Below, one piece after another: positions 25,814-39,200 of a stretch of DNA of 64,000 nt (positions are counted from its first letter, which is position 1; the number at the start of each line of letters is the position of its first letter). Below the pieces are notes generated by a model. The model saw only the letters and a list, made by a program, of their open reading frames with translations, was not told where the DNA came from and searched no databases. A program made the translations under genes and the position numbers. Origin of the DNA: Bacillota bacterium (GTDB lineage: Bacteria; Bacillota; Desulfotomaculia; Desulfotomaculales; Desulforudaceae); assembly GCA_040757205.1 (NCBI GenBank), contig JBFLXL010000008.1:1-64000 (forward strand), given 5' to 3'.

Positions 25814-25842
25814 TTGACAGGTTCGTAGAAGATTCATAATAT
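25814..25842 (+). promoter_or_regulatory. SigA promoter of riboswitch 1
   Basis: TTGACA at 25814-25819, 17-bp spacer, TAATAT at 25837-25842. It sits about 10 bp before the Mn2+ aptamer. An almost identical promoter (same boxes and spacer length) is found before riboswitch 3. Confidence 0.85.
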
Positions 25843-25849
25843 TAGGTTA

Positions 25850-26022
25850 AGTAGGGGGGAGTAGCTCTTAAGCAGCGGCGGACATCGTCAGCACGTCCTG
25901 CGTTAACGTGGGGCCGGTGCCGCAGATCAGGGCACAGAACGTATTTGTGCCTGATGAGCAAGACCTCTGCCAGGCGCGATGCTTTTAGACAAGCGTTCGT
26001 CCGGCAGGGGTCGTTTGTTTTA
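25850..26022 (+). ncRNA. yybP-ykoY Mn2+ riboswitch 1 with terminator
   Basis: Aptamer marks are GGGGGGAGTAGCTC near 25853-25866, CATCGTCAGCACG, and GAGCAAGACCTCTGCC at about 25956-25971. All are conserved in the yybP-ykoY class, known to bind Mn2+ and usually to switch gene expression on. The last block also starts a terminator stem: GACCTCTGCC (25962-25971) can pair with GGCAGGGGTC (26003-26012), then GTTTGTTTT follows. It is the first of two in series. No gene start follows it, only an orphan RBS at 26030-26036. Confidence 0.92.
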
Positions 26023-26087
26023 GTATCGGAAAGGAGATTGTCCAGGTTAGTATTTCGGAAGCTAAGCAAATATAACCCTGTATTGGG

Positions 26088-26262
26088 TTAAGTAGGGGGG
26101 AGTAGCTCCCGGCAGCGGCATCGTCAGCACGTCCTGCGTTAACGTGGGGCCGGTGCCGCGGATCAGGCGCACAAGACGTATTTTGTGCCTGATGAGCAAG
26201 ACCTCTGCCAGGCGCGATGCTTTTAGACAAGCGTTCGTCCGGTGGGGGTCGTTCGTTTTTTC
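26088..26262 (+). ncRNA. yybP-ykoY Mn2+ riboswitch 2 with terminator
   Basis: About 90 percent like riboswitch 1 and offset by about 240 bp. It has the same GGGGGGAGTAGCTC, CATCGTCAGCACGTCCTGCG and GATGAGCAAGACCTCTGCC blocks. Terminator arms are GACCTCTGCC (26200-26209) and GGTGGGGGTC (26241-26250), followed by GTTCGTTTTTT. No good separate promoter was seen before it. The two units may therefore share the promoter at 25814, giving a tandem gate for the UPF0324 gene at 26666. Confidence 0.92.
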
Positions 26263-26460
26263 TGATGAACGCAAAAACAGTGCCGGGAGGTGAGTAACGC
26301 CGATACTCAGGTGAAGGCGGCTTAAACGCCGTGCTCTTGTCGAGCGGGGGAACCTGCACGAATCCGAACCTTGACCCTTCAGGGAAATCTTACCGCCAAA
26401 GGAGGTGCCCGGCCCTTATTATCAGGGGATGCAGGGGATGAAAAAATAAACTTTAATTTT
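26263..26460 (+). promoter_or_regulatory. Structured leader of unknown class
   Basis: Between riboswitch 2 and the first gene is about 200 bp with clear helices (GGCGGCTT/AACGCC and similar). The short blocks GCGGGGGAACC and GAATCCGAACC recall parts of the ydaO/yuaA c-di-AMP riboswitch. The order and remaining core do not match well. It could be an unusual or degenerate riboswitch. Confidence 0.35.
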
Positions 26461-26477
26461 GTGATGGAGGTATTGCC

Positions 26478-26609
26478 GTGTCTCAAGCTACTTTAAACCC
26501 GGTAAATGCAAATTATGTTGAAGGCATTCGCAAGGCTCTCCCGGGCTTGATTCTGGTGGCCGCGCTGGGCGGGTTCGCCTTCTGGGCGGACGGTTACATA
26601 TTTATGTGA
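26478..26609 (+). CDS. Small single-TM protein, 43 residues
   Basis: GTG at 26478 with the RBS GATGGAGG eight bases upstream; stop at 26607-26609. The peptide has a polar start (SQATLNPVNANYVEGIRKAL) and one membrane segment (PGLILVAALGGFAFWADGYI). The pattern resembles the N-terminus of UPF0324 proteins, so it is either a truncated paralogue or a small subunit of the next gene product. It is the first gene after the tandem riboswitches. The gap to the next start is 56 bp. Confidence 0.6.
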   Translation: MSQATLNPVNANYVEGIRKALPGLILVAALGGFAFWADGYIFM

Positions 26610-26665
26610 AACATTTTCTCATAGGTCCCAAAAATATTCCTTAATTAACGGGGGTGTGATAAGAA

Positions 26666-28825: not shown

Positions 28826-28854
28826 TTGACAGGCCCCAAGAAAAATCATAATAT
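28826..28854 (+). promoter_or_regulatory. SigA promoter of riboswitch 3
   Basis: TTGACA at 28826-28831, 17-bp spacer, TAATAT at 28849-28854. The surrounding bases (aacatcttgacag…tcataatattaggg) match the promoter at 25814 closely, so both units derive from one ancestor. Confidence 0.85.
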
Positions 28855-28857
28855 TAG

Positions 28858-29025
28858 GGTAGGTAGGGGGGAGTAGCTCCGAGTAGCGGGCATCGTCAGC
28901 ACGTCCTATGTTGTGTGGACCGGTGCCGCAAATCAGAGTGTTGGTGTATTATGTCTGATGAGCAAGACCTTTACCAGGTATGGCACTTTTATGCAAGTGC
29001 GTCTGGTAGGGGTTTATTTATTTTT
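28858..29025 (+). ncRNA. yybP-ykoY Mn2+ riboswitch 3 with terminator
   Basis: The GGGGGGAGTAGCTCC, CATCGTCAGCACGTCC and GATGAGCAAGACCTTTACC blocks are conserved. The terminator pairs GACCTTTACCAG (about 28966-28977) with CTGGTAGGGGTT (29003-29014), followed by a T-rich tail. It precedes a P-type cation ATPase by 50 bp. It is more diverged from copies 1 and 2 than they are from each other. Confidence 0.93.
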
Positions 29026-38211: not shown

Positions 38212-39200
38212 CCTGGGCAAAAAAATCACCGTGAGTTGCCTGGCCGCCTGTGGCTTGGTGGTGGCCATCGGTCTCATAAACGGTCAGCCGCCGCTGCAAA
38301 TCATCCGCACGGGTATCAGTTTGGCGGTTGGGGCCATACCGGAGGGATTGCCCGCCGTCGTTACGATTGCCATGGCCTTCGGCGTACACCGGATGGCGAG
38401 GAAGAACATGGTCGTCCGCAAGCTGAATGCCGTAGAAACGCTTGGTTCTGCCACCGTGATCTGCACGGACAAGACCGGAACGCTGACCAAGAACGAAATG
38501 ACGGTGACGGACATTGTGGGCTATAGCCGGCATTGGCAGGTTACCGGGGAAGGATATCTGCCCCAGGGGCGGTTTCACAGCCAAGGCCGCGTGGTTGATC
38601 CCGCTCAGGATGCGGAACTGCGCCAAATCCTCAGCATTTGCACCTTATGCAATAACGCCGGCTATGACGGCGACAACGGCCATATTCAGGGTGATCCAAC
38701 CGAAGCGGCGTTGAAGGATCCGCCCAAACCGGGGGTCAAACAAGCGGTAGCCAAATGCCGCCGGGCCGGGGTCAAGGTTTTGATGATCACCGGGGACCAC
38801 CCCGCCACCGGTATGGCTATTGCCAGGCAACTGGACATTTTGCGGCATGGTCGCCTGCTGACCGGCAGCGACATTGAAAAAATGAGCGAGGAAGCACTAG
38901 GTGAATGTCTTGAACGAGTGGAAGTGTGTGCGCGTGCCACGCCGGAGCATAAGCTGCGCATTGTGCGCGTGCTGAAACGAAACGGTCATGTGGTCGCCAT
39001 GACGGGTGATGGGGTTAACGATGCGCCGGCGGTCAAAGAAGCCGATGTGGGCATCGCTATGGGTTGAGCGGCACGGAAGTGACCAAAAGCGCCTCTTCCA
39101 TTGTACTGACCGACGATAACTTTGCCACTATTGTTGCCGCACTGGAAGAAGGGCGCAAGCAAGCTATAGACAAGGATATTGCGGCGGTCGAGCACAGTCC
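38204..39200 (+). pseudogene. Truncated P-type cation ATPase
   Basis: Begins in the middle of a PMR1/SERCA-type ATPase at the M4 region ([20 protein letters not shown]) and keeps [16 protein letters not shown]. It jumps from GDPTEAAL straight to DPPKPGVKQAV, losing most of the nucleotide domain. It shows [16 protein letters not shown] and then a frameshift at 39067, followed by [20 protein letters not shown]. The N-terminal and C-terminal membrane parts are absent. It is clearly dead, distinct from the intact gene at 29076 (PEGLP against PEALP). Confidence 0.92.

Follow-up and report, generated by a model that had tools for sequence, protein, structure and literature searches.

The yybP-ykoY class of riboswitches senses Mn2+. 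In the ON switch of L. lactis, Mn2+ stabilises the switch helix (P1.1) and blocks a terminator (PMC11087558), and the invariant adenine of loop L3 (A41 in L. lactis) binds the metal through N7 (PMC6754395, from which the residue roles of L1 A10 and the L3 adenine are taken here). A 'pseudo-cooperative' principle has been described for riboswitches arranged in tandem (PMC9481103). The same 2022 survey remarks on a 'surprising lack of tandem Mn2+ riboswitches', counts the class among those never seen in tandem and leaves this absence among more than 5,000 members unexplained.

Located in the window, the 64,000-nucleotide stretch of DNA analysed here, is a pair of such riboswitches in front of a gene for a UPF0324 membrane protein (Table 1), confirming that Mn2+ riboswitches previously reported absent in tandem do exist. 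As the class has been published as never paired, the locus is a rare and testable natural double gate. The preliminary description had placed two near-identical aptamer–terminator units, each about 175 nt long, at 25850–26022 and 26088–26262, and 163 of the 173 ungapped positions are indeed identical between them; the UPF0324 gene that it named behind them matches PF03601 at 153.9 bits (cut-off 24.5) and starts about 400 nt 3' of unit 2. We count as a pseudo-cooperative tandem two complete units of one class with a gap below 300 nt and no ORF between them. Here the gap between the aptamers is 121 nt, each unit has its own terminator, and no plausible ORF lies between units 1 and 2. Overlooked in that description was a third unit, directly 5' of the P-type ATPase gene, which came to light because a search of the window with GGGGAGTAGCTC, allowing at most one mismatch, returned three matches, all of them exact (0.33 expected).

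Table 1. Features of the tandem Mn2+ riboswitch locus and of the downstream ATPase gene (window coordinates).
Feature	Position	Strand	Details
Promoter of tandem leader	25814..25842	+	TTGACA then CATAAT (15-nt spacer) or TAATAT (17-nt spacer)
Unit 1 aptamer–terminator span	25851-26012	+	Mn2+ (yybP-ykoY) class
Unit 1 Mn2+ aptamer	25851..25970	+	R1 43.4 bits, E 2e-11; predicted fold
Unit 1 motif sites	from 25856; 25890		L1 GGGGAGUAG (from 25856); invariant L3 adenine (25890)
Unit 1 intrinsic terminator	25962..26021	+	-32.6 kcal/mol, z -5.6
ATPase ribosome-binding-site remnant CGGAAAGGAGATTGTCCA	26027..26044	+	16/18 identity to CGAAAAGGAGATTATCCA
Unit 2 aptamer–terminator span	26092-26250	+	Mn2+ (yybP-ykoY) class
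Unit 2 Mn2+ aptamer	26092..26208	+	R1 49.8 bits, E 2e-13; invariant L3 adenine 26126
Unit 2 intrinsic terminator with U-tract	26200..26260	+	-29.3 kcal/mol, z -3.6
43-codon ORF	26478..26609	+	GTG start, GGAGGT ribosome-binding site, one probable membrane helix
UPF0324 (PF03601, YeiH-like) membrane protein, 593 aa	26666..28447	+	Pfam PF03601
Small membrane protein, 107 aa	28461..28784	+	Sequence read directly
Unit 3 promoter	28826..28854	+	Same sequence as tandem-leader promoter
Unit 3 aptamer–terminator span	28863-29014	+	Own promoter; whole stretch 28826-29022
Unit 3 Mn2+ aptamer	28863..28974	+	R1 49.0 bits, E 3.5e-13; invariant L3 adenine 28898
Unit 3 terminator and U-rich tail	28966..29022	+	Predicted fold
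P-type cation ATPase, 885 aa	29076..31733	+	TIGR01522 699 bits (cut-off 798); Pfam

The 43-codon ORF between unit 2 and the UPF0324 gene, which has a good ribosome-binding site, has no relatives among the loci compared; it was considered as a broken copy of YeiH and rejected, there being no similarity among those loci. A divergent riboswitch in 26263–26480 was likewise discarded, as nothing in Rfam matches there and the fold is no better than those of shuffled sequences.

Computation shows the arrangement to be rare in the samples searched. A pattern search across the phylum (398 genomes) returned about 104 sites, spread over 90 genomes, against 2 control sites; a same-strand pair occurs only in the window genome. 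Matches to the covariance model R1, described below, occur in 187 of the same 398 genomes, and among the approximately 150 listed, the stronger ones, there is no further tandem. The window genome also holds the only tandem among 113 genomes of its taxonomic class, a tandem-pattern match in another of these (G042) being due to chance with no aptamer present. A scan of 84,980 genomes over a limited spacing range yielded one tandem, in Clostridium mobile (NZ_JAHLQF010000001.1; locus L043, reverse complement, 878–1195), where two near-identical units (62.8 and 59.3 bits) precede a P-type ATPase gene. A search of open-access literature found no later report of tandem Mn2+ riboswitches. Two divergent Mn2+ aptamers lie back to back, about 150 bases apart, in a further genome (G169, C1 3264714–3265048).

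Assignment of the units to the Mn2+ class does not depend on Rfam. The preliminary description had named RF00080 as a check on both units, and the outcome was negative: there is no match at the gathering score (45 bits) nor at E ≤ 10. RF00080 was dropped as the deciding test and does not settle class membership, since its cut-off excludes the verified E. coli mntP leader (41.6 bits, Rfam 15) and the E. coli K-12 alx leader, also verified, is not listed at E ≤ 1. Among 20 loci carrying the pattern GGGGAGTAGC-N60-90-GCAAGACC, which has matches in 18 of 60 genomes of the window's order (reversed control pattern, 0), RF00080 scored eight, all at 21–36 bits and under the cut-off. The missing match reflects a shortcoming of the Rfam model, not of the finding; in its current form the model seems insensitive.

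R1 is a covariance model derived from 24 aptamers of families other than the window's, with the structure set by hand; this alignment was used because a 46-sequence MAFFT alignment, tried as the basis, contained few pairs. The three units score 43.4–49.8 bits under R1 and the next best match in the 64 kb scores 10.8 bits, part of each score reflecting the two terminal motifs by which the members of R1 were picked, with the L3 loop and the helices independent of that choice. Two Mn2+ riboswitches published for E. coli, alx and mntP, score 44.4 and 41.5 bits, and the window units thus score like them. All three units keep L1 GGGGAGUAG with A10, L3 UCA with the Mn2+-binding adenine, and the 3' motif GCAAGACC; P1, P3 and P4 form in the predicted fold, and P2 is not evident. 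The independent covariance model, the conserved ligand-site nucleotides and a terminator overlapping the switch helix together sustain the assignment to the class as well as the reading as two units in series. Computation shows the units to be members of the Mn2+ (yybP-ykoY) class, with intact ligand-site nucleotides in all of them, and they would be expected to bind Mn2+. That they merely resemble the class and sense another ion or small molecule, as the silence of RF00080 might suggest, is very improbable, given that R1 recovers alx and mntP and scores the units as highly, that the Mn2+-ligating nucleotides are unchanged and that unit 3 precedes a P-type cation ATPase gene.

Folded without its 3' part, unit 1 forms a terminal helix (GUAGGGG/CCUCUGC), a GCUC/GAGC helix, P3 with its UCA loop, and P4. 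The whole unit folds into the terminator instead, the 5' arm of which, GACCTCTGCC, is the 3' strand of the switch helix, a layout shared with the L. lactis ON switch (PMC11087558). The segment GACCUCUGCC is common to the aptamer fold and the terminator, and the two helices are mutually exclusive. Across four units the 21-pair terminator stem is retained in 98.8% of cells, and all 61 aptamer and terminator pairs are standard in units 1 and 2 despite 10 substitutions. Covariation among the four closest units, which are too few and too alike to be informative, does not clearly exceed that of the shuffle control, which leaves R1 as the basis of the structural case.

From this architecture we propose that a single transcript starting at about 25845 would pass through two complete Mn2+-activated switches, one after the other. 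Mn2+ would hold the terminal switch helix of each unit (GUAGGGG paired with CCUCUGC); when the metal is lacking, the terminator would take the 3' strand of that helix and transcription would stop. Read-through into the UPF0324 gene would require both gates to be open, so that output would be the product of two Mn2+ curves, and compared with one unit the pair should leak less, rise more steeply and switch at a higher threshold. The steeper or higher-threshold response is thus a prediction of the architecture, and the ON direction in vivo and the action in series would follow the same plan. We consider it probable, with fair confidence, that the leader is a pseudo-cooperative tandem Mn2+ riboswitch, that is, two switches in series derived as a copy of an ATPase leader.

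The single clear promoter noted in the preliminary description, with TTGACA at 25814 and a -10 element near 25835–25842, was recovered. The separate promoter before unit 2 that would have spoken against a shared transcript did not emerge: the best promoter-like match there (8/12) has the most frequent score in shuffled sequence, and scoring against shuffles detected no promoter above chance 5' of unit 2. By sequence scoring, both units would lie on one transcript, although a weak promoter 5' of unit 2 may exist. If it did, or if unit 1 were a leftover of duplication, UPF0324 would in practice be under one Mn2+ riboswitch. In keeping with such a single gate are the ribosome-binding site that resembles the ATPase one and lies between the units, marking the arrangement as a duplication scar, the presence of a promoter-like site before each unit of the Clostridium mobile tandem, and unit 1 itself, which has the lowest R1 score and the weaker U-tract (GTTTGTTTTAG), short and interrupted, so that its terminator may be leaky. 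We regard this as unlikely, because unit 1 has lost none of its core nucleotides and none of its 61 pairs, its differences from unit 2 fall in loops or preserve pairing, as if still under selection, and the only good promoter is that of unit 1.

The series arrangement can probably be traced to a copying of the ATPase leader upstream, because a ribosome-binding site like that of the ATPase gene survives after unit 1. The segment at 26027–26044 agrees at 16 of 18 positions with the site immediately 5' of the ATPase start codon, a score reached in 0 of 2,000 shuffles. Units 3 and 2 are identical at 122 of 165 positions, and the unit 3 promoter is identical to that of the tandem leader. In a genome of the same genus (G002), one such unit precedes the gene for an ATPase that shares 88% identity with that of the window, and the UPF0324 gene lies elsewhere without a unit.

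Unit 3, with its own promoter, would control the ATPase gene downstream of it. The product is closest to the PMR1 (Ca2+/Mn2+) type: TIGR01522 gives the best score of all subtypes, 699.2 bits, below its cut-off of 798.3. Among the targets surveyed here, cation ATPases are the commonest family, with 35 of the 96 different genes that follow aptamers of the class, ahead of TerC (24), Na/Ca exchanger-type proteins (12) and M48 peptidases (7). At 38213–39159 the window also contains a second P-type cation ATPase in pieces, in different frames with stops between, which is a broken gene. In locus L022 (2483–2640), a TwoAYGGAY RNA (RF01731) scores above the gathering score 3' of a TerC gene that itself lies behind a Mn2+ aptamer.

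The UPF0324 gene is an unusual target, since none of the 96 surveyed genes matches it and no such riboswitch accompanies its relatives in the family. The survey of other genomes suggested in the preliminary description thus failed to extend the association: no UPF0324 match occurs among the loci of the 96 genes (25 of 35 Pfam families listed), no aptamer lies near the UPF0324 relatives in the family, and no paper in the open-access library searched names both yybP-ykoY and UPF0324. The protein is the only copy in its genome and scores 69.5 bits against the YeiH subfamily model TIGR00698, under the cut-off of 232.6. Its relatives adjoin Mrp-like genes in four of five genomes (G001, G002, G003 and G005; Mrp named by reading of the sequences), and in Salmonella the distantly related YeiH confers resistance to sulfite (PMC12880088). 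Mn2+ control of UPF0324, taken as predicted regulation, is well supported; the step from there to a role of the protein in Mn2+ handling, made in the preliminary description, is weak in view of the riboswitch-free relatives, the survey and the sulfite role of YeiH, and a function in Mn2+ handling or metal stress can be suggested only as what the leader might imply. UPF0324 and the small membrane protein together adjoin Mrp-type Na+/H+ antiporter genes in four of the loci compared, and a gene similar to that for the 107-aa protein also follows UPF0324 in G002. The closest Mrp-like genes of the window genome are on another contig.

These observations bear on whether the leader might instead be wired for the ATPase through a long transcript, with UPF0324 and its small neighbour as passengers unrelated to Mn2+. 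Every unit is similar to the ATPase leader, that of G002 included, and the stretch from the small gene to unit 3 contains no predicted terminator; the UPF0324 relatives, riboswitch-free and in four genomes beside Mrp-like antiporter genes, and the sulfite role of YeiH point the same way. The ATPase gene, however, is served by a promoter and riboswitch of its own some 250 bases 5' of it and so does not need a distant leader, and in this lineage UPF0324 has left the Mrp neighbourhood and lies intact behind the gates. We hold wiring for the ATPase to be a substantial possibility, somewhat short of even; it concerns the target and is compatible with the pseudo-cooperative reading of the leader. 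The most far-reaching version of that reading, in which the locus is the first natural single-promoter Mn2+ AND-gate with a steep, high-threshold response and UPF0324 belongs to a Mn2+-excess regulon and contributes to Mn2+ tolerance, is doubtful.

Together with the independent Clostridium mobile locus, the window locus establishes that tandem Mn2+ riboswitches exist and makes a published puzzle testable. Should both gates work, it would provide a natural ON-ON series switch in which the sharpening of a metal response by a tandem could be measured. That Rfam scanning leaves mntP below threshold and misses alx and the window units suggests one reason why such pairs could have been overlooked.

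Compared with L. lactis yoaB, a transcriptional ON member of the yybP-ykoY class, the window units have a like L1/L3 core and a switch helix shared with the terminator, and unit 3 likewise has a P-type ATPase target. They differ in the long P4 arm, in the UPF0324 target, in the presence of two complete units in series behind one promoter and in the lack of a clear P2 hairpin, as in many TerC-type members and, apparently, E. coli alx. The UPF0324 protein shares with YeiH the membrane core (PF03601, about 330 aa, 154 bits), but is extended N-terminally by about 200 aa and has a metal-type leader in place of the sulfite regulator YeiE. Clostridium mobile likewise has two near-identical aptamer–terminator units, 186 nt apart from start to start, and differs in having a promoter-like site for each unit and the ATPase itself as target. 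Like the TPP, Mg2+-I and glutamine doublets described as pseudo-cooperative (PMC9481103), the window tandem consists of two full aptamer–terminator units with no ORF between them; unlike those doublets, it belongs to the Mn2+ class, which that survey lists as never in tandem.
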